Part shown: piece after piece, positions 4,823-56,298 of the stretch
Numbering within the stretch: position 1 is the stretch's first letter
Layout of the letters: each line of letters opens with the position of its first letter
Source: Pezicula radicicola
Taxonomy: Eukaryota; Ascomycota; Leotiomycetes; Helotiales; Dermateaceae
DNA length: 64,000 nt
Assembly: GCA_003008705.1 (NCBI GenBank)
Contig: PDUO01000005.1
Coordinates: 1,553,997 to 1,617,996 of the forward strand
Reading direction: 5' to 3'
Program-made: the position numbers and the translations under genes
The notes under the pieces: model-generated
The model's input: only the letters and a program-made list of their open reading frames with translations
Database searches by the model: none
What the model was told of the DNA's origin: nothing

Positions 4823-6105
4823 TTTGTGCGTAGACGAGTGACTTGTTTTGGAGGGAAAGAGCTAAGGAGATAATGAAGTAGCGAAGTGAATCATGAGATG
4901 AACGATTAATTGAAGGATAGAAAAGAAAGATATAGATGAGATTATACTTACAATTACGAAGTAGATAGGAGGCTTAGCTCTAACCGTGTGCGAAGTTACC
5001 TTATTTCGTACTTCTCGTTGTTTTCACGTCAGTCTCCACTTTGTATACGCCTGGGCGATTATCAGTCCGTCCTGTCATAAACCAAGGGAACCATTGAAGC
5101 TTCGAGAATAAATTTAGCGAAGAAAGCTAAAGACGTAAACGTAAACGAGAACGAGGCCGGTAGCCGATACGGCGCGTACGGAGGAGTATTATCTAACAAC
5201 ACAGCAACCGCTGAGTATAAAAACACAGCCTCGAGATACTTGGACGCCAAGTTAAAGTGCCTACACTAAAACAAGCAAAACAAAGTCCATCCTTTTAATT
5301 ATGCTTCACTTTAAAGGAAATACCGAGGAACTTGTACAGCTTTTACTTCTCCTCTCAGCATTGGCAAACTTGCTTAAATTACACCGTATATGTGCCTCGC
5401 ACTTCTCGTTGATTTCCATATTGAGACAATTACGAACACCAAGCGCACGGCTTACTGTCTCCGCCGATTTCGACCGTATATGATGCCAAACTAAAGATAT
5501 TTATTAGAGGCGCAGCTACCTTAGCTTCCTTTGCTGTTCATACCGTCCTACATAAATTATTCATTTGTCTTGGTTGCTTCGAAGATCATGCTTCAGACTT
5601 CTCGTGATCCTATTTCCAAGCACTCAGAATGGAGACTCCTAATATGTGTGCACTACTATTGATTTTTTCTGCAGCCCATGTGTCGTATATGCCATCGACC
5701 TCATCGCTTGAAGGTAGGTTAGATTTATATAGGAACTTAGCACACAAATCAAAAGAGTTGCTCAAGTTCAAATTAAGCTATTTACTTAAACAGAGTCTGG
5801 TATTCAAAGTAAGTGAGCTATCAATCGCTTAAAGTCACGACTCTGGGAGAATTCGCGTGATCTATCTCAGATATCCTTTTCAGCACCGTATGTGCAGTAC
5901 CAGGAGCCAAAATGGAGATATCCCATGAATGACTGCTTAATCATAAGTAATAAGCTAAATACCTTCCTAGAAGATTTAGTTCGACTTGCTTTAGAACCAT
6001 TTGTGGCTTGCCTTTCCCATGGCTAACAGCCTCGGAATTTGAACGGACAAAATTTGACACATCCGGCTCCGGAAACTTGATGTAACGTACAAATGCTTAT
6101 ATACA
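4823..6105. other. Intergenic
   Basis: No supported gene. Two near-repeated phrases (GTGCGAAGTTACCTTATTTCGTACTTCTCG near 4988 and similar CTCGCACTTCTCGTTG near 5396) suggest local duplication. Degenerate TCAAAGTAAGTGAGCTATC motifs occur at 5745-5825. Confidence 0.5.
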
Positions 6106-6223
6106 TACGAAGGACAAGTTCATTTGTATTGAGCCTGGTCCAAGCGTTTCCGCTCACAAATCAATCCATTTCACAGCCAAAACGCTTGGACCAGGCTCAA
6201 TACAAATGAACTTGTCCTTCGTA
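6106..6223. repeat. Perfect 44-bp inverted repeat with 30-nt loop
   Basis: The left arm 6106-6149 and right arm 6180-6223 are exact reverse complements (left arm starts TACGAAGGACAAGTTC, ends GGTCCAAGCGTTT), separated by 6150-6179. Outside the arms the symmetry resumes after a gap: CTTGATGTAACGTAC on the left at about 6078 matches the reverse complement of GTACGTCGAATCAAG on the right with three mismatches. Transcription in either direction would give a long hairpin. A short open frame on the plus strand (6206-6418) begins inside the right arm, but nothing supports it as a gene. Confidence 0.9.
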
Positions 6224-8094
6224 CAGTACGTCGAATCAAGCAAACAACCAATCACCCCCAAGAGATCATCCAGATCCCGAAACAATACATTTAAAGTTCT
6301 ACAGTTTCAGATCATTGTCCTCGCACACCTCGCTTATTTCTACTTCGGGTCCGGTAATGTGGATTACCGGTGTGGTGGTACTTGTGCAAGTGATTCTGAG
6401 CTTAAATGGATCACCTAACCCACATTTTACGATTCCTTACGACTGGTAGGTGGGTGAGGTGGTCGTGCTCTTACGGGTTACGGTACGGTTTTCAGTTAGT
6501 CATGCGATTTTTGATATGGGGGTTCTGATGTGTTCTTTCATCTGAACTTTTCCGTATTCGGATCTTGGAAACTTGGTGAGATTATAAAACTGGGATGATT
6601 TTCCAGCTACTTTTCCCCACTTTCTTTTGTTGCGAAGAAAACTATAGTATTCTGCTCTGAAGAAGTAATATCAAGTCTTGCGGATTTAAATGTTTCTTGT
6701 TAGACAATGAGAGCGGAATAGAAGATCAGAGCTGTTTCGTACCATACACTTTAAAGTATACGGCCTGAGAGAGAAAATCTTTACAGAACACCACAAATTA
6801 GTTTCTGTATCACACAGATCCATACCAAGACACGAGGGAATATTAGAAAGAAGAAAAGAAAGGTCTCATCGAGGAGCTGTGCGCTATGGAACAACTATCT
6901 ATTGGTGTTTATAGATTCCCGGAGGCATACCACATTATCAACAGCTTGTTGTGTATACAGAACCTTCGATGTTGAAATTAAAGCCTTTTAACTAGTTTCG
7001 TATTATATCTCACTGACAGCACTCTGTATAATGACAGCAGCAAGCCTATCTATAAATAATTTCAATGGGAAATGTATGCGAGGGCCAATGCAATACCTCG
7101 CTCTTTACAGTAGTACCGTAACTCCGCTCTGGATATTCTACCGGCCTTCTCTCAGTTAAAGAGTCCACTTGTATTCATCCACCAGTTTCTGGTCATAGAA
7201 AGCAAAGCATGCTACAGCTTTAAGCTTAGTATATCTAGCTTCTTCGTCCCAAATGAAGTAATATAGATTAAGATTCGTGGCCGTACCTAGATATAGAGCT
7301 CCTTGTCGAACTGTTACCTACATTTCTGGTAAGTATACTTTTCTAATTTCAAGAATCACTAATCTTTTGCCAGTTTCTAATTACAATATTAGGTTCCAAG
7401 AGGGGCACAATTATGCGATTTTTCCACCGCTCTTCTTCGTCTGTATTCTCGAATACCTAAAGCCCTTCACAGAGGTTGCCACCATTTAAAAGTTAGATGG
7501 TCAAAATTGTAGGGCGACAAAAAGTGATCGATTATCCCCTCTATGCTTTAATGCGGGACCCTTCAAATGTAGCTTTTTCTTCACTAAAATTCTGCAATGT
7601 TTTTAATATCACATCCTTTGGGTTAACTGTCAGACTAAGGTACAGGGTATCTATCAGTGACCCTTGTTTGTTTTACTTTTGAAGGTGGTTACATTATTAC
7701 TCTTTTACAATGGAATAATGGTGATGAAGAAATATATATAGGTAAGCGTATATAATCCCTCTAGCGAGCTCCAACAATGGATGGAAACCACTCCATTTGC
7801 CTACTCTTTCGAGCTAGCGATCAATCGAGAGAGAGAGAGAAGTTTCGAAACCGCCCCCACCGCCCCCCATTTTGTTTGGAAAAAGGTAGAAAGAAAAACT
7901 TAAAGATAGGTAGATTTTTTCGATGCTTTTCAAAGCCGCTTAGTGAATAGCAATTATTACCTTTTGCCCGCGTTCCATTTCCTCGTCGATTTTGCTATTC
8001 TCAAGTCCCTCAATAAAGCATTGCCCTATATACTTGTAATGTCTGGTTTCGAGTCCATCAACTGAGATAGGTTTTTCTGCAAGAATTGCCATAA
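6224..8094. other. Long non-coding stretch
   Basis: No reading frame resembles a known protein. A short GA run is at about 7820-7842. The stretch looks like ordinary AT-leaning intergenic DNA and carries the 3' flank of the cullin-HET gene. Confidence 0.5.
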
Positions 8095-11000
8095 TTAATA
8101 AAGATGAATTTTAGTTTGCGTGTATCCTCGGGACTCACCAGATAAGGAGCTATGACTTCCACTATAGCCGGATTCCGACCGTTTTCGCTCGAAATATTGA
8201 TGCGCATGGTTGATAGGCAATCCTTCAGGTGTGCTATAGGGACGTAGGACATGGATAGATTCTGGCGCATCCGCAATGAAACATAGGACATCATGACTTC
8301 TATATGATTCTGGCAATAAAAGATCTCTTTTTTGAATGCGAGAAGATATGTCGTCATTGGTAATATGGGCATGATGCTTAGAGTTTTGTTGTGTTGGTTC
8401 TGTGTTGTCCTGAGTAAAATCTATTGGGACTCCTATACAGCCAAGGACGGATCCATCGAACAACCAAACACGGTTGCTACTAAGATTATGAGACCACGTG
8501 TTGCTTGTTTGTTCCCTGGAGTCCGGCTTTAGACTGTTTAAAACGACATTCCTCAAGTATTGGCTCTGGTGGTCTGGCGTCATAATTTTCCAGTTTGGGG
8601 CCCAAGATGCTATCGTCTCGTGGGAAGATGTCTCGGTCGAGTTCGATTGGCTAGGAATAATCAAATTTGTATGCCTTTCTTCGAGTTCTATATCCTCGAC
8701 AAATGAAAGAAGCCTTAACCCAGCAATCTCGTCAATTAAGTACCGAGCAAATCCCTCATATACGGTTTTGCAACTACTTGCGTAGTCAACCATCTTGTCA
8801 AGATGAGGCACCGAGACTATTTTAGTATGAGCAAAGAGCATATCTCGTGGGTCACTGACCCCAAGGCCTCGACGAAATTGGAGGACTTTTAAGAGATAAT
8901 GATCTCTCTCTTGAATACCAAGGGTGCTTTGGCGAGCTGACCGAAGGTCTTCCATTTCGGACAGAAGTAGAAGTCCTCTGAATGCGTTTTTGTGTTCCTC
9001 ATCTGTATTGATATTGGCAAGGTGGGACTCCAGTGTCTCTTGAGCATCGGTTGGGCCCGTATAATGCTGTAAAGCCTCGAGATACTCGCTGGCAGTTCGA
9101 CTATGTGGAACAGAGTCCCACGAAGACACTGCCAGCCATTTTTGGACGTCCAAATCACTGTTCAGGTTGGCGTCTTCGAAATAATCCTTTACTGTCCGAT
9201 CTCCTTGTCCATGGGATCCATCTTCCGTGTCGGATACTTTGAGATCCAGAATTTTACAAATACTGTCCCAACTTTCGCATTTACGTCCACATTGGACTAG
9301 TGGGTTAGGTGAAGTGATCAGTTCTTGAAGAACCCAAATCCTCGTGAACCATGGATGGCTCAAAATGGGTCTTACAAATGACTTCACATGCGTGGCTGAA
9401 CGTGAAGTTATGCGCGACTTCCAAAGACCATATGTCAACGGAGCGTAATCGAAAAGATAGATGATCGTCTTCGCTGCACACGAATATATGGAAGCCATTT
9501 GACGAACTTGGTGTGTTCGTTCTACTATATCTTGTTGATTGATACTTATTGCGTCAGCCCACAGATACACCACTTGCTCATCAGGGCGTGGACGTATATT
9601 GTGAAGAGCAGAGTTTAGGCTGACGGTAATAGAAAGCGGTTTGCCATCAACTATGACCATTGTGGTGTTGGTGCTATCTCCCCATACGTATGAGAGTGCC
9701 GTATATCGGTAACCGTGGCTGCTTCTGCATGCGCTCAGGGTTGTGTGAATGAGTTTGTACTCATTGCAGGTCTCTCCAGGCCACAACTCAATAAGCCGTA
9801 TTTCATCAGGTTCCTTAAGTGGTTTGTAAATGCCCTGCTGCTTGTCCACTGTTCTAAGTGGCAGGTATTCCGGTACTGTGTTAGAGGGAAATTGGCCAGT
9901 TTCAGAGTCATCACTGATCACTGATTTCCTTTCCGTGGCCTCCCAGAATCTTTCCTGTCCATTTGACATGTTATGTCGCTGTGGAAGCCCGGCCCCAAGG
10001 TATGAGAATTCTTCTCCCTCCCCTCGCTCTAGATACTCTTTCTCGAGCAAGATGTCTATGTTCTTCTTGATATCGGCGACTTTCAATGGAAAACGAGTTT
10101 TGACTTGCTGGATGGTCTCTTGAACGATATTGGTATACTTCATCTTCTTGCGAGATTTCATAATCCGGACGATGGTGGACTAGTAATTGTTAATGTCAAT
10201 GGTAAGTCAGAAATTTAGTTGGGGAAAAAAAAAGGGACATACTTGAGTGAGTAGGCTCCGATCCTCCTCAATCCTCTTTTGAAAATGCTCGACTTCTTGC
10301 TTCTGCTCTGATTTCAACGCGATATTCAGATTGATCTTGATCTTCTTGCTCTTGAAGTTCATGTTCAATGAGAATTTGTTGCCCTTCTGAAATGTAGCCT
10401 CTTTAGGCTCTGATACAAGAACATTGGCTGTTAGCAATATTTGGAGAGTCGGATCAAGGATTTTCTTGTTTAAAGAGGTGGTATCGAAGATTTTCTCATA
10501 ATCGATGATATCTTCGTTGTTGAAAAGCAGTAGGATTGCCATTTGATAGGTGGAGACTTGGAAGGTGTACGGGATTTTGGAGCTTTTGATGTAAGTAGCA
10601 CACATCTCACCCTTGCAGAGGTGCCATAGCCAAGTAAGCTTGCGGCCATTGTGCATATCAACATAGTAGCTTTGAAAACGCTCGGTAATCTTAAAAATTT
10701 CTGCCGGGGGAGTGAAGAAGGTTCTTGGAGGGCCAAGAGGCCAGGAGCCTGTATCCAAAATAGCAAAGCTAAGATCATTCGGTTGCTTCTTATCGTCAAC
10801 ATCAAACGTCTTATCTTGGAATGCTTTGAACTCGGCCTTGAGCGGTTTTGAGGTCTGAATATCTTGGAACATACGCCGGAGCTTGTTGGTGTACTCAAAG
10901 CCGCATGCTACATTCAACTTGCTGATCATGCTGGTTTCAGCATCATCTGATAAGGAGTTTTCATATAGCATGCGTTTGCCTAGCATTCGAGCATAGAAAT

Positions 11001-12586
11001 CCTTGAAAATATCCTTGTCCTCTACATAATTGAAGACAGTCATGACCTCAGTGAGCTTATTTTCCAGCTCGAACTCATCAGGAGCCTTTGTGCCCTTCCT
11101 AAGTAGAGTATGAACGTATTTTGCAAGCAGTTCGGCTGATCGGCCGGAGCCAGGCTCACTAATTTTGTTGGCGTTGACAAATTCGCGGCACGCATTGTCA
11201 AGGGATCGAAGAAATTCAGGTTTTCCAGCGAAGGCAACATTGGCCAGGTGATGATAACGGACATAGACCCCAAGTAAAGCATCAACGTAGGTCTTAAGGT
11301 CAACGTTCTCGCCAGATGAAGCAACTCTGTCCACAGCAGCCAGACCAGTTTTCCGAACGTGAGTTTCGAACGTCTGTCTTAGGGAATCTAGGCCTCCATG
11401 TATAAGTGAAAACAAGCGGAATATACAAGCAAGATCCTCTTCACGATCGCCGTCCAGTAGAACTTGGAACTCATTGTGAAGGATAGAGTGATCGTTGAGA
11501 AGGACTTCTAGAGAGGTTCCCATATATATCCTCATGGTACTAGGATGTAGATAGAGTCCGACCCTTTCCTTGTCTTTTTCCAGGCCAGATTCTACCTTCT
11601 TTATGTACTCTACCACACTATCCTCTGTCATGAAACGTTGAGACTCGGTTTTCCAGTATTCTTTAGTAGCGGCAATAAAGGGCCTCTCAAAGTAGAATAC
11701 GTAAATACCAAGGGTCTTGTGGCTGTAATTATCGTCCAGACTGAGAGAGACGAGCATTTCAACAATGCTTTTAACATGGGCGTGTTCGATTGTCTGACCA
11801 TTTCGCTGTTTCTCAATCAAATTCAGTACCCCTGATGTGACCTTCTCTTGAGTTGCCATAAAAAAGTCCTCCTTCCAACGGACCAAGTGAAGCGTGTAGA
11901 CATCATAGATCGGTTTCTTTCCTTCCTCTATCTCTCGCTTGATCCAATGACGATTTAGGTAGCGGAATAAGTGATTGACATATTTAGCAGCAGTGGTATA
12001 CCGATGCCATTCTCGAATGTAGAATTTTAAAAAGACTTCTTCGGAGTGACCTTTAGAGGCACGGTAGACGTCTTGAAGGTGATTAGTCAGGTACTGTGAG
12101 AGGAGCGCGTAAAGTTCTCCTCCACGTAAGTGTTCTAGATTAGATTACATAGTATTAGATACTGAAAAAGAATTTCTGCATAATAAGGTCTTAAATATAG
12201 ACTTCCAACAATACCTCCTCTGTGCCTACGAGGCTCTAGTGAATGGCAAAAGTTATGCACCGCACTATAGAGGTGTTAGCAGCCGCATAAATTACAGAGC
12301 TACGGTGTCTTTACACATAAGCATTCATATACTATGTCGCCGTCAGTAACGAAATCAAAAGGGAAGTTGGGCTAGCTTTACGAACCATCTCCATGGACAC
12401 ACTTTGGTACAAATCCTTCATAAGTTTCTCGATAAATCTTTCCAAGAAGTCCCATCTGTAAATAGCCCCCGTTAGTGAGTTCTCAAGCTTCATATCACTG
12501 CGATAGCAAGAGTCGTGGGAGTCAAAATCTCACGTAGCTTCGACATCATTCCCATCTGGCAGCTCTGGAGGCATGGCAGGCGGCAT
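8095..12586 (-). CDS. Cullin-1-like protein fused in frame to a HET domain
   Basis: Exons are 12586-12534, 12455-12386, 12275 (or 12264)-12215, 12134-10243 and 10179-8095, for about 1386 residues. Residues 1-755 are a full-length cullin: TWDFLERFIEKL at the N-terminus, YTLHLVRWKEDFF, DIFKDFYARMLGKRML, SDDAETSMISKLNVACGFEY, GRKLTWLWHLCKGEM, PYTFQVSTYQMAILLLFN, LNIALKSEQKQE, then the NEDD8-acceptor site IVRIMKSRKKMKY (Lys codon 10158-10156) and the winged helix ending EKEYLERGEGEEFSYLGA. Cullins normally stop there. Here the same exon reads on through a linker into a HET domain at about 849-990, with YTALSYVWGD, YLWADAISINQQDIVERTHQ, MASIYSCAAKTII and HPWFTRIWVLQELI. Cullin-1 scaffolds SCF ubiquitin ligases; HET domains trigger heterokaryon-incompatibility cell death. 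The cullin part is diverged, so a paralogue is likely. The exon 2-3 junction lacks a proper acceptor (see findings). Confidence 0.85.
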
Positions 12587-13865: not shown

Positions 13866-14663
13866 AAGTTCAGGCTGTAATACCGAGGTCCTGTTGATTC
13901 TACGAAGAAAATAACTAGAAGGTAGGTAGATAATTTGTTAGTTAAGTCTTATGTTGAATGGGCACAATATAGACAGCAATAGGTGGTGGCAATAGTAGTG
14001 GATTTTATGTTCTGTGTGGAAGCTAGAGTGTCAGTACTTATAGTAGTAGGACGATCACATGACTATTTCTATATTCACTGAATTTAACATCTTATTACCT
14101 AGTTCTATAGAAGATATTTTAATATTTGTATTATTATAGAGTAAGTAGAGAGGAATTTGTTAAACTAGTAATACTAAACTTCCAAGTCTCTAAGTCTTAG
14201 CTAGTAGTAGAGGCATAGAGCCTGCTTACTCAATGACAACAAATATTTCCCACTATTAACAAAATTTTAGCTAAGTTTTTACTTTAGGTTGTAGACTATA
14301 TTAAGTCTTCTCTCTAGTTTTTTTGCTTTGAGCGAGTGCTCAATCGGTGCTTACAAATACTTTTTCACCCTACAGTTCTCCTTTAGATCCTGTTGCTGCT
14401 GATAATAATGATGATTGATGACATTGTTTGTGTTGATTTGTTAATTAAACTGATAGCCTCCGTTTCCACATTACGTAAGAGGCATCTTCCATTCCCATCC
14501 CCAGTTTATGTATCCTCACCAGGTTAGCTTTTCTGAATGACATGAATTTCCTTATATGCTTAACTGTCTCAGCGTGTATCATCTCGCAGAAAGTTTCAGA
14601 CTTAATGGAAGTGGATTATACTGCCTAGTACATTTTTGAAATTTGTGTTAATGTTAATCCAAC

Positions 14664-20939: not shown

Positions 20940-23900
20940 ATGGTTCAAGTACCGATGAGCCTGGGGGCTTCGGCCAGCACCACGACATTACGAGCCTCAC
21001 CAGCGGGTGCGACAGCCAGCAACAATGCATCAACTCGAGGAAAGCCTACGACGAATGGCAATCCAGCCTCGGCACCGCTGCCACTCAGTGCCTTGCACTC
21101 AGCACCTCTGGACCTGCGAAGCGTTGAGATGAGAGGAGCGCCCACAGCTACGCGGGAGACCACGAAGAGAATACGACCGCATGGATTGTTGGAGGCGCCC
21201 ACGTACCGACCTACGGAGGCGGAATTCAAGGATCCATACGAATATATCAAGAAGATCGCTCCAGAGGCGTCGCAATTTGGAATTTGCAAAGTTATTCCGC
21301 CTGAGTCGTGGAAGCCAGACTTTGCCGTCGACACCGAGGTACGTTCAGCCCTAGGAACTGATCTCTTTCTTGGAATACTTCCATGGCCGTCGGCGAAGGA
21401 AGTTATATACCACGTCCCATATATTGTTCCACTTAGACTCTGCAACTGACCGATAGTAGCGTTTTCACTTTCGTACAAGAAAGCAGGAGCTGAACCAGGT
21501 CGAAGGAGGTACGTGGATATACTCATCTGGTGATCGCATTGCGCAAGGCAGCAAATGCTAAACATCACAATTAGGCACACGAGCGAATTTAGCATACCTG
21601 GATCAACTGGTGAAGTTCCACAAGCAACATGGCACTAATCTCAATCGATTTCCGAGTGTCGACAAGCGCCCTCTCGATTTATACAAACTCAAGAAGTCAG
21701 TCGAAGCCAGAGGCGGATTTGAGAAGGTCTGCAAGCTCAAGAAGTGGGCTGAGATTGGTCGAGACTTGGGATACAGTGGGAAGATCATGTCCTCGCTGTC
21801 GACCTCACTCAAAAACTCGTATCAGAGATGGCTCTACCCATTTGAGCAATATCTTGCAGTGGCCAAACCTGGTGTTCACCAACAATTGGAGTTCGAGTAT
21901 GGAGGACCTCTCACTCCTTCTCCAGCAAACTCACCGCTGAAGAGGTCACATCAACATACGCCATCAAGTCTCCGCGGTGACTCGCCAGCAGTAAATGCGT
22001 CAAATGCTCTTAATGACCGCATGAGGGATGAATTTGAGAACAATGTGATGAAGAATTTTACACAACTTGATGCTCCCTCCCATGCGCCACCTCCTCGTCC
22101 ACAACCACAGCCAAGCACGTCAGGCTTCACTCCAGTCAACGCTGGAGGTTTTACGCCTGTCAATGCTGCACCTGCATCCTTCACGCCTGTCAACATACCT
22201 AGACGTGACCGGGAAGAGAGCAGCTTTACCAGTACTCCTCCACGGCGGGCTTTTGACAGTCCTATGTCTTCATCCAAGAATACGCCGGAGTATCGTCCTT
22301 CTCATCTCAGCCAGCAAGCCATCACCAACGGTTTCACATCCAATCCGCTTTTAAAGAGACAGATGAGCCATGAAAGTATGGATTCACGACGAGACAGTCA
22401 GCCGCCTGAGCAGGCTTCGGAAGGGGAAAATACAGGACGACGGAGTAAACGTCTCAAAAAAGGTATGTCAGCCACATTGAAATGCGATGCGCAACAAAAC
22501 AATTATTTCGCGCAAAGTTGCACAGATGCGGTGCGCATCGCATGAAGCTCAGCCTTTGCCCGCATCTGCCCATCTCCAGGATTATTTATTAGTGTCCTTT
22601 CCAGAATCCTGTCCCGTGTTTCGATTGGCGATGAAGATCCGCCGCTAACTGACCCCTGTAGATACGGTCCCGACTGTGGCTGGTTCGCACATGTCCTTAT
22701 TTCGACCTCAACCACCACGGATACCAGGCGATGGCTCGTCAGTACCAGGAGAGGTAAGTAAATTCAAGCAAGTAAATAGTGATAATATTTTTAACCACCA
22801 TCAACAGAAGTGCGAGTCGTGTGGTAAGAAGGAAGACAAAGAGAAATTCCTCATATGCGACAACTGTGATTATGGCTACCACATGTATTGTCTCGACCCT
22901 CCTGTCGCACATAAACCTGACTACGATTGGTACTGTCCGAGATGCCTTGTGGGCGATGGCCAGTTTGGATTTGACGATGGTGGAATCTACTCACTCAAGC
23001 AGTTCCAGGAGAAGGCGGCAGATTTCAAAGAGGGTTATTTCCAGAACAAGATGCCTTTCGATCCGGTGCTAAACTGTCCTCGACCTGTTACTGAAGACGA
23101 CGTCGAACGAGAATTTTGGAGACTTGTTTCTAGTATTGAGGAGACAGTTGAGGTTGAGTATGGCGCAGACATCCATTCGACTACTCACGGCAGTGGTTTC
23201 CCAACCATGGAGAGGAACCCACTAGACCCCTACTCCACTGACCCCTGGAATCTAAACATCATGCCATTACACGGAGAGTCATTATTCAAGCATGTCAAGC
23301 GCGAGATTTCTGGTATGACTGTCCCTTGGCTATACGTCGGAATGGTCTTCTCTACTTTCTGTTGGCATAATGAGGACCACTATGCGTACTCAGCAAACTA
23401 TCAGCATTTCGGATCCACGAAGACATGGTACGGTGTACCTGGTGGAGACGCCGAGAAATTCGAGAAGGCGATGAGAGAAACAGTGCCGGAGCTTTTCGAA
23501 ACCCAACCTGATCTTCTTTTCCAACTAGTCACCTTGTCAACACCCGAAGACTTGAAGAAAGCAGATGTCAAAATCTATGCCCTTGATCAGAGAGCTGGAC
23601 AATTTGTCATCACCTTCCCTCAAGCATACCATGCAGGGTTCAACCATGGCTTCAACTTCAATGAGGCGGTCAATTTTGCGCCAAAAGACTGGGAGCCTTT
23701 TGGCGCTGCTGGAGTAGAACGCTTGCAACAATTTAGACGACAGCCTTGTTTCTCTCACGACGAACTTCTCTTGACTGCAGCAGAGGGTGTCACCACAGGA
23801 GGCTTTACCATCCAGACGGCCAAATGGCTCGCCCCAGCTCTTGAGCGCCTCCGAGACCGTGAAACAGCGCAGAGAGAAATGTTCCTGGCCAAACATACTG

Positions 23901-26735
23901 AACATGCCCATAAAGCGACTGATCCAGAGCACCCGTGCGTGGTTTTGGACGATATTGAGGATGCAGGTCCTCGCTGTGCCATGACATATATTCTCGATAA
24001 AGAAGATGTAGCCGAGGATGAGTATACATGCGTATATTGCAAAGCTTACACATACGTCTCGAGGTTCAAGTGTAATCGAACTGGCAAAGTCATGTGTCTA
24101 CTCCATGCCGGTAGCCATGAGTGTTGTGTCACGCCAGAGAACGAACGATATGCCGGCACCAATCATACATTACACTACCGACGCACTGAGGACGATCTTA
24201 CAGCCACATACCAGAAAGTCGCTGACAAAGCTCATCTCCCCGAACAATGGGAAGAAAAGGTTGACAAGACTCTCGAGGAAGAAGCGACTCCAGCCTTGAA
24301 AACTCTACGGACGCTTTTAAACGAAGGCGAGCGCATCCCTTATGATTTACCGTCGCTTCCTGTGCTCAAAGCCTTTGTGGAACGCTGCAACGAATGGGTG
24401 GACGAAGCTACAAACTACATTGTCCGGAAGCAGCAGAACCGCCGAAAGAGTGAGAAGGCATGGCGCAAGGGTAGTAAGGCCGCCGAACAAGAAGAAAAGG
24501 ACCGCGAGCATCGGAAGGTTGAGAATGTCAAGAAGCTGTTGAGGGAAGCAGACAGGATTGGATTCGATTGTCCGGAGATTACTCAACTACGCGAACGTGC
24601 TGAGGCGATTGACAATTTCCAACACAGTGCTGTCAAAGCCATAGAAAACGTTGTCCTCCGCTCAACACAAGACTTCGAAGAACTTCTTGAAACTGGTAGA
24701 AGTTTCAACGTCGATATACCTGAGATCGAGAAGCTCGAGCAAATCATGCAGCAGATGAAGTGGAATGATCGTGCCAGGGAAAACCGAGGAAAGTTTCTCA
24801 CTCTGGATGAAGTTAGCGGGATGATCGAGGAGGGCAGCAAGCTTCACATTCCAGAGTACAACGACTATCTGAATTACTACAAGGAACAGAGAGCTTCTGG
24901 TATGACCTGGGAAGCAAAGGCTAAAGAGCTGATGAACGCCGAAATGGTACATTATCCACAACTAGAGGCTTTGTCTGCTCAGGCCCAAGCGGCAGCTCTT
25001 CCTGTGGCACCGGAAACCCTTGCTGCTGTAGACCAAATTTTGAACAAGCAGCGAGAGGCACATCGACAGATCATTTCGTTGGTCGAAGGAAGCCGAGAAG
25101 AGGATTACTCAAAGCGGCCAAAGTATTCAGAAGTCCGCGAAACAATGGAACGCCTTACAGAGCTGAATAGTAAGCCCAATGGCACTTTGGACTTGGAAAA
25201 GGAACAAAAGCGTCACGAGGACTGGATGCGCAAAGGCAAGAAGCTATTTGGGAAAGCAAATGCACCGTTGCATATTCTCAAATCACACATGGAGTATGTT
25301 CTCGAACGTAACAATGATTGCTTTGATACTGCTCAGGATAAGCCGAGACTCCCTGCAGAGCCAGCATCCCGAGAGCAGAGTCCTGTGCCTGAAGGATCGA
25401 ACGAGAAGATGCATACTTGGGAGGATCCTCGCTTCCGGGAAGTGTTCTGCATATGCCGTCGTGTTGAAGCCGGAATGATGATCGAGTGCGAGCTTTGTCA
25501 TGAATGGTTCGTTGGCTTGTTTACTCTGCTTCCCTCTACTTTAGCATACTGATATCTATAGGTACCACGGTAAATGTTTGAAGATTGCTCGTGGCAAAGT
25601 CAAGGACGATGATAAATACACCTGTCCCATCTGTGATTGGCGCATACGAATTCCTCGAGACGCTGCCCGACCGAAGCTGGAAGATCTCCAGGCTTGGCAA
25701 GACGAGATCCAAAATCTTCCTTTTCAACCAGACGAAGAGGATATCCTGAGTCAGATCATTGAGCAAGCACAGAATTTCCGTGCACATGTTGCTCCTTTCT
25801 GTAATCCACTCATGGCGACAGCTGATGAATCAGAAACCCAACGATTTTACCTACGCAAGATCGAAGGTGCTGAGATCCTTCTCGCTTATGAAACTAACTT
25901 CTTCCGTCAAGAACTACACAAGTGGTCACCTGTGGCACCTGAGCCGCCGCCAATTCTAGATGCTTCCAAATCTACTCGCAAACCACGCCCTACAAAGCTC
26001 CAAAAGATGATGGCAGCACATGGTGTTGACGATCCAAATGCACTTCCTCAACATCTCCGGACGAAAGCGCATACCTTCAATAAGAGGAAGTCCTCTGAGC
26101 CATCTGGTCATCCCCAACCTCTCCAACCCCGTGAGCAATATGGACGATCTGATTCTGGCACTCCTACCTCGCAGACTTTCTCTGCACACGGCCATCCTCC
26201 TCATCCATCTCTTAACTACGCTCCAAACCAAGAGCCTCATCCGCACTTCACTATGTCCGGACCTAATCCCCAGATGCCAAGTCCAGCATTTGCTCATGCT
26301 TATCTACACAACTCTGCCGGTGGTGCCAACCCTGCCTTGCACAGTCCGGGGTTCCCCGGCACTCCAGGTTCATCGCAACCAACAATGGGTACCTTTGGAC
26401 GAATGGACAATCGTCTAGATCCCCCTCTGCATCGAGGTCCTCTTGATAGTCCCGGTTTAGGGGGCTCCTTCTCACTAAATAATGAGTCACGAAACCCGTC
26501 GCTTTTGGATCCCTCATTGGATCCTGCTCTGGGACCTTCGGTGGCTCCTGGTGGCAGTCAGGAATTTGACAACATGATCAATGATTCATCTGACAACAAG
26601 ATTCGGGCGATGGGCTCGTCAATGTGGAAGCCGGAGATAGACTCGCACAACTCAGAGCGCGAACGCGAGCGTGAAAATTCGGAACAACAGGATGAAGAGG
26701 CCATGTCATTGTTTTTCAACGATAACGGCCCCTAA
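20940..26735 (+). CDS. KDM5/JARID1-type histone H3K4 demethylase
   Basis: The exons are 20940-21338, 21460-21508, 21575-22462, 22662-22753, 22808-25506 and 25562-26735 (1766 residues; phases agree). Domains in order are: JmjN at about 86-127 ([20 protein letters not shown]), ARID at about 150-243, a first PHD finger at about 477-526 ([19 protein letters not shown]), JmjC at about 627-760 with the iron ligands in CWHNEDH and the HAGFNHGFN motif, C5HC2 zinc finger at about 883-935, PLU-1 helical region, and a second PHD finger beginning [18 protein letters not shown]. This is the full KDM5/Lid2 layout, which removes methyl groups from H3K4me2/3 in chromatin. The C-terminus is disordered and Pro/His/Ser rich. 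The linker after ARID has three FTPVN repeats. The intron at 22754-22807 is 54 nt without a stop, so retention would add 18 residues just before PHD1. Confidence 0.95.
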
Positions 26736-52903: not shown

Positions 52904-53898
52904 TTTAATTTGCAATGAATAGTAGAACTTGAGGTAATAGAGTTTGCGGAATAATTTGTGGTGAGATACAGTTTCCACGGTAACTTATGTGACAGTAGGT
53001 TGCTTTTTATCATGAGGGCGAAGCGACGTCATTACGCCTTGGTGCGCCCTTCCGACTATTAGTCACGTGTCATACAGTCAATACAGGTTGGAAATCAACG
53101 TGACTGTTTATTTTTGAAGTCCTTAAACTAGGCTTTTACTGCACTAGAAGTCGGCGTGTCATAGAGCTAAGTATGCGGAGTTAGTTTAACAGAAGATTAG
53201 CTACCTAAATGAGACAAGTTACTCAAAAGAAGTAGTTTGCTGAAATTGAGTGAGTTACTCAACTCAAATACAGATGGATTGGTAGTAATTACTTAAATTG
53301 AATAGCGGTAGATGATTCAAATCAAGTGAGTTACTCAAATTTAAGTAAGTCATTCGAAGGAGGCAGGTCACTTAGCCAGCACAAGCGCCGAGATGTTTTA
53401 GTTACGAGTAAGCATCGCTTAATTAGTACTCTAACTCCACGAACTTTCCTCATACAAACGACAATGTCTAATGTAAGGTAGCGAGAACATCCCCTGTAGT
53501 AAATTAGACAATGATTTTAAACCGATTAAAACCACTTTGATATTCTTCTCGGCTCTCCAATGTCCAATTTCTAATCTGCCTGTAGAATTGGTTCTTACCC
53601 CGCAGAACCCCACTTTCTGAATTTCTCCGTCAGTATGCAAACCCCGCGATCGACACTTACAAGCTCCATAAAGCTAAGCTTGATGAAGGAGGCAATGATT
53701 GTAAACTATGATCTGCTAGTCCTAGGCCATCCGGTATTCAGATTCAGATTTCTCTTCTATAGAATAGCGACAGGAAAAGTTTCCGTGAAATACAGGCACT
53801 ACTACGTGGCTATATTCATCCACTTGTTTAATTTGAGTAATTTACTTGTTTTGAGTAACTTAATCCAAATACTCGATTTATATGTCTCTTGATAAATA
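52904..53898. other. Intergenic with the densest array of the GAGTTACTCA motif
   Basis: Between 53205 and 53365 at least six units follow each other (ACAAGTTACTCAAAAG, GAGTGAGTTACTCAACTC, AAGTGAGTTACTCAAATT, AAGTAAGTCATTCG). A further group sits at 53825-53870, immediately before the fucosidase start codon. Confidence 0.65.
53205..53365. repeat. Array of TGAGTTACTCA-type near-palindromes
   Basis: Units of about 15-20 bp share the 11-bp core TGAGTTACTCA, which is a palindrome apart from its middle base. Units occur in both orientations with irregular spacing. Similar arrays occur in many other intergenic regions of this window and inside the MITE-like copies. Confidence 0.75.
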
Positions 53899-56298
53899 AT
53901 GAAGAAACTCTTCAGTGCGCTTATCCTCACCCTTGACTGTGGAAGGGCTGCAGCAAAATCATTTTGGTCCAATCTGCCGGCCGATTTTGGGGATATCATC
54001 AGAGAGGCTTACCCTATTGGCAATGGTAGACTTGCCGTACTTCCCAATGGCGAACCAGGCGTCGAGGCACTAAATCTCAACCTCGACTCGCTATGGACCG
54101 GTGGACCGTTCGAATCTGATAGCTACGCAGGAGGAAATCCATCGGAAGAAGTTTATTCTTTTCTTCCAGGTATCAGAGAATGGATCTTCCAAAATGCAAC
54201 TGGCAATGTCTCCAAGCTCCTTCATGATTATGAGAATTATGGGTCTTATTCGGTGCTTGCGAATTTGACTATTACCATAGCGAATGTTACGGGTAGCACT
54301 GGATATATGCGTTCTCTGGATTTGACCACAGGAATTCATACGACTAATTACACGGGCAGCGATGGGAACTTTTACGTTACAACGAGTTACTGCTCTTATC
54401 CGGACCAAGTCTGTGTTTATAACTTGTCTTGCAATTCAACGCTACCCGATATCAGTATTGGATTCCAGAATCTGCTAGTGGATGAGACGGTCCAAAATCT
54501 TACTTGTGGGGACAACTATGTCAGAATTGCTGGAAACCTTCAATCCGGCCCGCCTCTTGGTATGAGATATGATGCAGTAGCTCGATTGGTCTCAAGCGAA
54601 ACGATAAGTGCCTGCAATGGAACAGAAAATGGGACTATGATTGTTCCATCTAGTGTTGGCCTTCGGAGCTTCAGTATCGTCATTGGTGCCGGGTCAAACT
54701 ACGATCAAAAGAAAGGCAACAGTGCTAGTAACTACTCATTCCAGGGTGAGGATCCAGGAGACTCGGTAGAATTGGTCACGTCTACGGCAGCACAGCAACT
54801 AGAAAGCGATCTCCGAGGTGCTCATATCGAAGACTATTCCTCGCTCATCGGATCATTTTCTCTTGATCTTCCAGATACGAAGGGTAGCGCGCAGTGGAGG
54901 ACAGATCTGCTTATTTCACAGTATACAGTTATAGACCAGGATCCATACCTGGAAAGTCTTATGTTTGAATTTGGCCGCCATCTGTTCATCTCGTCTTCCA
55001 GGGAGAATTCACTTCCGGCAAATCTTCAAGGAAAGTGGAATTATCAGTCAGACCCAGCGTGGAGCGCTGACTACCACGCCAATATCAATCTACAAATGAA
55101 TTATTGGTTTGCTGACCAATTGGGACTTGGGAATCTCACAAAAGGTCTTTGGGACTACATCGAAGACACATGGATACCACGCGGAACTGAAACTGCTCAG
55201 CTTCTGTATGGAGCTCCAGGGTGGGTGGTGCACAATGAAATGAACATTTTTGGACACACAGGAATGAAAAATGGTTCTCAATGGGCAGATTATCCTGCTG
55301 CTGCTGCATGGTTAATGCAACATATCTGGGACCATTACGAATACTCCGGCAACCATACATGGTTCCAAATTCAAGGATATCCGATGATCAAAGGCGTAGC
55401 ACAATTTTGGCTCTCACAGCTACAACTAGATACTTATTTTAACGATGGCACCCTCGTGGTAAATCCATGCAACTCACCTGAACACGGCGTCACAACTTTT
55501 GGATGCACACACTTTCAACAGCTTATCTACCAGATATTTAGTTATGTAACCAAAGCGGAGTCACTTTTTCCAGACTCCGATGCAGATTTCTTAACCAACA
55601 TTACTATTGCACTCCAATCCTTAGATAAAGGCCTTCACATCGGCACCTGGAACGAGATAAAGGAATGGAAGATCCCAGACACCTACGGCTACGACTTCCA
55701 GAACGATACTCACCGCCATCTCTCTAACCTTTACGGCTGGTATCCGGGCTACTCTATCTCCTCATATGCTTCGGGGTACACAGAACCATCAATCCAATCC
55801 GCAGTAGCCAACACGCTCTATTCGCGTGGCATCGGCGGCGATGTAATAAATGGGCAAGCAAGCCAGGCAAATGCAGGATGGCAGAAAGTTTGGCGAGCAG
55901 CGTGCTGGGCGAGGTTGAATAATACGGAAAGAGCATATTTTGAGCTCAGGTTTACGATAATGAGTAATTTTGTGGAAAATGGGTTGAGTATGTATAGTGG
56001 GCATGATAAGCCGTTTCAGATCGATGCCAATTTTGGATACGTTGGCGCGGTGCTTAGTATGTTGGTTGTAGATCTACCGAATTTGGAGGACGGTAAAAGG
56101 ACAGTAGTGCTTGGACTAGCAATTCCACCGGCTTGGGCTGGTGGAAGTGTTAGGGGGTTAAGGTTAAGAGGTGGTGGAGTTGTAAGCTTTTCTTGGGATG
56201 ATAATGGTGTTGTTGATTCTATATTGGATGCGCAAAATACGGAGGGTGTAGTTTTGGTCAATGTGAAGGGCGACTTGCTTCATGACTCGTTAGAATAA
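53899..56298 (+). CDS. Secreted GH95 alpha-L-fucosidase
   Basis: This is a single exon of 799 residues. A short hydrophobic signal sequence (MKKLFSALILTLDCGRAAA) precedes the GH95 N-terminal beta domain, which opens IIREAYPIGNGRLAVLPNGE and NLNLDSLWTGGPF. The (alpha/alpha)6 barrel follows: NLQGKWNYQSDPAWSADYHA then NINLQMNYWF, VNPCNSPEHG and KPFQIDANFG. In the family, the Asn pair of the NINxxMNYW stretch, the Glu of SPEHG and the Asp of IDANFG are the catalytic residues; all are present. The enzyme removes alpha-1,2-linked fucose (or galactose in some relatives) from polysaccharides such as xyloglucan outside the cell. Many Asn-X-Ser/Thr sites fit secretion. It is intronless. Confidence 0.93.
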   Translation: MKKLFSALILTLDCGRAAAKSFWSNLPADFGDIIREAYPIGNGRLAVLPNGEPGVEALNLNLDSLWTGGPFESDSYAGGNPSEEVYSFLPGIREWIFQNATGNVSKLLHDYENYGSYSVLANLTITIANVTGSTGYMRSLDLTTGIHTTNYTGSDGNFYVTTSYCSYPDQVCVYNLSCNSTLPDISIGFQNLLVDETVQNLTCGDNYVRIAGNLQSGPPLGMRYDAVARLVSSETISACNGTENGTMIVPSSVGLRSFSIVIGAGSNYDQKKGNSASNYSFQGEDPGDSVELVTSTAAQQLESDLRGAHIEDYSSLIGSFSLDLPDTKGSAQWRTDLLISQYTVIDQDPYLESLMFEFGRHLFISSSRENSLPANLQGKWNYQSDPAWSADYHANINLQMNYWFADQLGLGNLTKGLWDYIEDTWIPRGTETAQLLYGAPGWVVHNEMNIFGHTGMKNGSQWADYPAAAAWLMQHIWDHYEYSGNHTWFQIQGYPMIKGVAQFWLSQLQLDTYFNDGTLVVNPCNSPEHGVTTFGCTHFQQLIYQIFSYVTKAESLFPDSDADFLTNITIALQSLDKGLHIGTWNEIKEWKIPDTYGYDFQNDTHRHLSNLYGWYPGYSISSYASGYTEPSIQSAVANTLYSRGIGGDVINGQASQANAGWQKVWRAACWARLNNTERAYFELRFTIMSNFVENGLSMYSGHDKPFQIDANFGYVGAVLSMLVVDLPNLEDGKRTVVLGLAIPPAWAGGSVRGLRLRGGGVVSFSWDDNGVVDSILDAQNTEGVVLVNVKGDLLHDSLE

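Follow-up and report, generated by a model that had tools for sequence, protein, structure and literature searches.

A second cullin-1 copy joined in one open frame to a HET domain in Pezicula radicicola, a possible integrated decoy

We analyzed 64,000 nt of the Pezicula radicicola genome (GCA_003008705.1, contig PDUO01000005.1, positions 1,553,997-1,617,996 of the forward strand), here called the window, and positions are given within it. On its minus strand the frame 8095-10179 is open over 694 codons. In a Pfam scan Cullin_Nedd8 (PF10557) matches residues 2-55 of this frame with 74.8 bits (cut-off 36.9) and HET (PF06985) matches residues 159-286 with 84.2 bits (cut-off 22.5). The cullin body (PF00888) is encoded one exon upstream and also scores above its cut-off. 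The original prediction had placed a NEDD8-acceptor motif, the cullin end FSYL and the HET motifs in one frame, and all of them lie where it put them (Table 1). The presence of a cullin-1 copy and a HET domain joined in one open frame is thus confirmed. The Pfam scan shows only cullin and HET families in exons 5 and 6, with neither NACHT nor NB-ARC.

The frame belongs to a predicted gene of seven exons at 7940-12586 on the minus strand, coding for 1,419 residues with an uninterrupted reading frame. A complete cullin-1-type protein takes up residues 1-755, a linker residues 756-809, and a HET protein the remainder. Splice sites for exons 1-4 were picked by their fit to the fungal cullin-1 N-terminus. 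The ordinary cullin-1 of the same genome, on contig C25, was modelled afterwards and has its introns in the same phases. The YMNAYV encoded in exon 3 lies within the region that binds Skp1 in other cullin-1s. The HET protein had been taken to end with the frame at 8095. The frame is indeed open to that point, but its end is probably an unspliced intron, given the donor and the further exon listed in Table 1. The product of exon 7 ends IIAIH, and several HET relatives end IxIH or IxLH.

Table 1. Features of the predicted fusion gene in the window, with two ankyrin-HET frames from other loci of the genome.
Feature	Position	Strand	Remarks
Exon 1	12534..12586	minus	start codon at 12586; donor GTGAGA
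Exon 2, cullin N-terminus	12386..12455	minus	unusual donor GTTCGT; length 70, equal to exon 2 of C25 cullin-1
Exon 3, encodes YMNAYV	12315..12331	minus	length 17, equal to exon 3 of C25 cullin-1
Exon 4, cullin N-terminus	12215..12264	minus	gene model, comparison with C25
Exon 5, cullin body PF00888	10243..12134	minus	559 bits; 57% identical to C25 cullin-1
Exon 6, single frame through the neddylation winged helix, the linker and the HET domain	8139..10179	minus	
Cullin_Nedd8 domain	10015..10176	minus	Pfam
NEDD8-acceptor lysine codon, K702 of the fusion	10156..10158	minus	in motif IVRIMKSRKK (motif placement)
FSYL	9997..10008	minus	where reference cullin-1 proteins end (YLA/YIA/YVA)
Linker, about 54 residues	9835..9996	minus	predicted disordered
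HET domain PF06985	9322..9705	minus	Pfam
YTALSYVWGD	9705-9676	minus	HET motif
ADAISINQQDIVER	9558-9517	minus	HET motif
WFTRIWVLQEL	9351-9319	minus	HET motif
Exon 7, HET protein C-terminus	7940..8076	minus	stop codon ends at 7940; donor GTGAGT at 8138
Ankyrin repeats then HET, one frame	L046:164-3901		1,245 codons
Ankyrin repeats then HET, one frame	L047:371-3571		1,067 codons

All 31 aligned reference fungal cullin-1 proteins have YLA, YIA or YVA as their C-terminal end. The fused copy does not end there; FSYL runs on into GAGLPQRHN. The canonical cullin-end position is free of a stop in all three frames of the minus strand, and in the other two frames the first stops come about 24 and about 7 codons past it. 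No single base-calling slip would therefore yield an ordinary YLA-stop end, and the concern that a sequencing error hides a stop near the cullin end finds little support. All 54 linker codons ahead of the HET start motif are free of stops as well, for which the probability by chance is 7%. As evidence this is no more than moderate, since a Met at 9969-9967, nine codons past the cullin end, could have started a separate HET gene. It is the only Met ahead of the HET domain usable in that way.

The original prediction held that this junction has neither a stop nor a donor. The first part stands and the second needs qualifying, as weak GT candidates exist. Seven GT sites between 10179 and 9700 carry at least four of the six donor letters; none falls between 10036 and 9921, and no strong one is near. 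A scan for hidden introns gave 12 candidates, four preserving the HET frame and eight breaking it. Three of the eight (donor 10036) would replace the last 14 or so cullin residues, and the other five (donors 9921 and 9914) would give an intact cullin that ends in a tail of 33-66 residues and lacks HET. The candidate donors score 4 or 5 of 6, no worse than four of the six donors in the seven-exon model, so alternative splice forms may occur. Read-through of exon 6 would be the simplest reading of the junction. The fusion is supported by the missing stop, the lack of a strong donor nearby, the completeness of both domains, the retained cullin introns and the ordinary cullin-1 elsewhere in the genome.

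The assembly comprises 61.0 Mb in 152 contigs. Cullin_Nedd8 is found at four places, namely in the fused copy, in the C25 cullin-1 and in two more distant cullins whose best-matching (C-terminal) parts share 32% identity with the fused copy. The C25 gene, which ends YLA-stop, is the second, ordinary cullin-1 for which a check of this genome had been proposed. The five cullin introns have identical phases (2, 0, 2, 1, 0) in the fused copy and in C25, suggesting the fused copy arrived as a gene with introns. As the ordinary cullin-1 is retained, the fused copy is an extra, a second copy and not the working cullin-1 of the fungus. In the C25 model the last intron (G000:C25:809145-809198, L041) starts with GC (GCAAGT), and the fused copy has GT there. 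Skp1 has one match over the cut-off in the genome and zf-rbx1 has several; for the HET family, with 150 of 302 candidates scored, there are at least 152 matches. A contaminated or mixed assembly is not supported, with a single Skp1 match, one full-length KDM5-like match plus five partial ones, and two more distant cullins beside the two cullin-1 types.

We placed the cullin half in a maximum likelihood tree of 33 rows, all cullin-1. The 31 references were picked from the fused copy's own matches and so lean towards its relatives; the rows include one leotiomycete other than this genome's copies and, to our knowledge, no sordariomycete. The fused copy falls inside fungal cullin-1 as sister to 12 Eurotiomycete cullin-1s (class confirmed by look-up for Thermoascus and Exophiala and taken as given for the remaining ten), with support of 100/98; its branch is long, at 1.55 changes per column. 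The C25 cullin-1 is sister to Lachnellula (Helotiales) with support of 100/100. The fused copy as a close paralogue of C25 was rejected as a joint clade (AU p 1.6e-5), and rejection of one clade holding the fused copy, C25 and Lachnellula was marginal (p 0.036).

Derived states were counted as well. At 22 columns with a Eurotiomycete-derived state, shared by at least 80% of the 12, the fused copy carries that state at 10, and each of 16 other Pezizomycotina at 0-3. When the state is required in all 12, the fused copy carries it at 8 of 14 columns, a count made without controls. It has the leotiomycete-derived state at 3 of 16 columns, with 0 to 4 of 16-18 in the controls. Judging from the tree and these states, the cullin half likely came from the Eurotiomycete side by horizontal transfer. 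The alternative is a very old duplicate lost elsewhere, which the tree set leaves room for because it holds only one other leotiomycete. The long branch of the fused copy likewise keeps a foreign origin at no more than likely.

The cullin half has changed at positions that other fungi keep. Across the columns invariant in the 31 references, the fused copy retains 175 of 217 (42 lost, 19%) and C25 retains 215 (two lost). Leave-one-out controls with 29 Pezizomycotina kept 96.9-100% of such columns. At columns invariant within the 12 Eurotiomycetes but variable elsewhere, the fused copy keeps 149 of 206, with 57 changed. For C25 and 17 other non-Eurotiomycete Pezizomycotina (chytrids apart), 97-100% of the all-invariant and 75-88% of the Eurotiomycete-invariant columns are kept. 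In the fused copy the two proportions, 175/217 and 149/206, hardly differ (p 0.051). Such a near-even spread of change suggests the fused cullin half is largely free of the usual cullin constraint. The frame has stayed open all the same, with 99 of the 423 columns invariant in the 12 Eurotiomycetes changed and no stop among them, where 99 random changes would bring 5.2-6.3 stops (P 0.002-0.006, a rough estimate from stops only). By region, 12 of 71 invariant columns have changed at residues 396-680, and 23 of 28 are kept at residues 681-755, the NEDD8-acceptor K702 included.

Over the roughly 534 variable columns, C25 and the fused copy differ from Lachnellula at 240 and 358, from Pycnora at 267 and 333, and from Thermoascus at 290 and 297, the last being equal. 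A confinement of the excess change to invariant positions was therefore rejected, as it holds for Thermoascus only and not for Lachnellula or Pycnora. A Fisher test of invariant against variable columns (p 6e-12) is confounded by variation among the references and was set aside. We read the cullin half as possibly released from normal duty yet kept as a protein, either bait-like or a fairly recent relaxed copy. With 42 of 217 invariant positions lost, a bait or a relaxed copy would be a better fit than a scaffold in full working order.

The HET half is a complete HET protein of about 650 residues with all three motif blocks. Its closest match is P0054, a stand-alone HET protein of the leotiomycete Pseudogymnoascus, with 29% identity over 92% (655-aa query; ranked among the best 120 of 179 matches listed). 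In the alignment the near-invariant Cys of the CINQ motif is replaced by Ser (SINQ), so HET-domain activity may be altered. Most stand-alone HET relatives in the alignment begin shortly ahead of the YxPL-like motif. We scanned ten HET frames of the genome, three chosen for length and seven from other loci, and two have ankyrin repeats ahead of the HET domain (Table 1). With this precedent, another module ahead of a HET domain is not alien to the genome.

We also looked for relatives of the whole fusion. The protein searches admit candidates of 0.55-1.75 times the query length only, so that just one query, residues 640-1400 of the fusion, could return full-length fusions. It returned 53 proteins, none with both a cullin and a HET domain in precomputed Pfam lists, in line with the original prediction, which knew of no described cullin-HET protein. 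No description of such a fusion was found among titles and abstract openings of open-licence PMC papers, and the two papers that mention both cullin and the HET domain describe none. Within these searches the cullin-HET architecture appears undescribed. With the cullin half as a 764-aa query, 7,996 candidates sharing most words were scored and the best match was only 61% identical (best 120 of 3,174 matches listed), so the matches listed include no close relative of the fused cullin with a length up to 1,337 residues.

Other joined domains were seen in the database proteins. P0042, P0043 and P0045, from three Aspergillus species, hold a cullin and PF11894 in one protein, and P0235 (Teloschistes) holds a cullin with PF13086/PF13087. 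Either merged gene models or genuine fusions of a cullin could explain these four. P0046 and P0047 (Coniosporium), each about 2,200 residues long, contain a HET domain and match PF13254 and PF00626 besides, being either HET with an unusual partner or a merged model.

The best explanation we can offer, held tentatively, is that the predicted 1,419-residue fusion acts as an integrated decoy in which cullin serves as bait and HET as the death switch. HET domains alone are enough to kill fungal cells, and the guarding of host proteins by fungal NLRs is a proposed model (PMC10197012, PMC12881547). Together with the ankyrin-HET precedent, these points suggest reading the two halves as bait and switch. 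We infer that the gene would be transcribed and that its cullin half would still bind some cullin partners (Skp1, RBX1, the NEDD8 machinery or CAND1) or, alternatively, would be bound by an invader's protein aimed at cullin-1. Such binding, forced removal of NEDD8 or other damage may cluster or release the HET domains, which could then trigger cell death. The fusion would in that case serve as a tripwire for attack on the SCF machinery.

The C25 cullin-1 would carry on the essential SCF work under the decoy reading, leaving the bait free to change. An ordinary copy of the bait protein, expected for an integrated decoy, is indeed present as C25. We know of no invader's protein that attacks fungal cullin-1. 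The weak cullin-type constraint on the fused copy may count against the decoy and would fit a relaxed copy too. Its excess change at variable columns, the Ser in the CINQ motif and the occurrence of the fusion in a single genome also weigh against the decoy. The wider idea of the original prediction, in which an SCF complex carries a tethered death domain that senses the state of the complex, seems plausible. It is modified by two findings, the probably foreign descent of the fused cullin as a second copy and its loss of invariant positions. A fuller scenario goes further, in which a cullin-1 taken from another fungal class was fused to HET and made into an immune sensor over the ubiquitin machinery, the first cullin-based receptor and one without an NLR. 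We regard this scenario as doubtful.

The fused cullin may instead still form an active SCF ligase, with its own HET half as the ubiquitination target, which would keep the protein scarce, so that a block of the ligase or of neddylation would lead to build-up and death. The conserved NEDD8 site and surroundings at residues 681-755 agree with this, as do the Skp1 and zf-rbx1 matches and a linker that is long and predicted flexible. The 42 altered invariant positions, including those at residues 396-680, and the weak cullin-type constraint argue the other way, making a self-restraining killer improbable, if still the strongest of the rivals to the decoy.

Next in rank, and unlikely, is a fusion of little use, with a spare cullin copy joined to a HET gene by rearrangement and now drifting, perhaps as an incompatibility locus. 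Drift would account for the long branch and for change spread nearly evenly over constrained and less constrained columns, and the flanks are somewhat AT-rich with short-repeat copies at about 2045-2212, 6105-6223 and 13946-14099. It sits poorly with the absence of stops among so many changes, with seven joinable exons over 1,419 codons and with a complete HET half.

We give a similarly low rating to an altered SCF scaffold, a working side-branch ligase whose HET half would be a docking module (through HET-HET contacts) and would not kill. The 19% of invariant positions lost from the cullin half speaks against such a scaffold; in its favour, the cullin domain and the neddylation domain are both whole and stand in the expected order. 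A review assigns an allorecognition role to only a small fraction of HET genes (PMC10197012), which with the at least 152 HET matches here makes other roles for HET possible. Against this, HET domains tested elsewhere cause death (PMC12881547).

Lower again in probability is a locus that makes two proteins, one from a cullin-like mRNA and one from an independent HET mRNA starting at the Met at 9969, which would share a frame through a recent accident. With that Met so close to the cullin end an accidental shared frame is not very improbable, the start would suit where most stand-alone HET relatives begin, and five of the candidate introns would leave a cullin without HET. An unspliced read of exon 6 gives the fusion all the same, as the cullin stop is absent in every frame, and the linker is open throughout. 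An assembly or base-calling error masking a break between two genes is very improbable, since a run of four G at the junction and the reliance on a single assembly are set against the lack of any frame that one slip could turn into YLA-stop and against the one Skp1 and one full-length KDM5-like match, which speak against a mixture.

The fusion resembles several known systems in part. Like fungal cullin-1 of the CulA and Cdc53/Pcu1 kind, it has whole cullin and neddylation domains, a NEDD8-acceptor Lys and the intron phases of the genome's ordinary cullin-1. Unlike them, it passes the YLA end by 664 further residues with a HET domain, besides its changed invariant positions. It shares with stand-alone HET proteins such as P0054 the complete HET protein and its three motif blocks, but in the fusion it forms the C-terminal half, behind a cullin and a linker of about 54 residues. 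In ankyrin-HET proteins and HET-NACHT-WD40 receptors of fungi the HET domain is also joined to another module; the fusion has no NACHT, WD40 or ankyrin match, and HET is joined in it to a housekeeping scaffold. Plant NLRs with integrated domains, or integrated decoys, likewise combine an immune signalling protein with an extra copy of some host protein whose ordinary copy persists; the fusion comes from a fungus, has no NB-ARC or LRR, and would act on a putative target.

A HET domain joined to a housekeeping protein suggests the input of a sensor outright. The fusion points to SCF and neddylation as a possible target for invaders of fungi. Neddylation can be blocked with a drug, and such a block could tie input and death output together in one experiment.

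The three short repeats that flank the fusion gene (2045-2212, 6105-6223 and 13946-14099) have many copies in the genome, and that at 6105-6223 has matches on both strands, as a palindromic miniature transposon would. Carriage by a Starship-type giant transposon is not supported. DUF3435, the Starship-type recombinase, has 36 matches in the genome and none on the contig of the fusion (C87). Most of the 36 contain stops, and together they suggest that giant transposons were once numerous in the genome. A telomere at the contig end was also rejected, as the last 9.8 kb hold no repeat array (TTAGGG four times and CCCTAA once). Elsewhere in the window, both on the plus strand, 22649-25552 encodes a JmjC/PLU-1 histone demethylase of the KDM5 type, the only full-length match in the genome, and 53896-56298 encodes a glycoside hydrolase family 95 protein of 800 codons.
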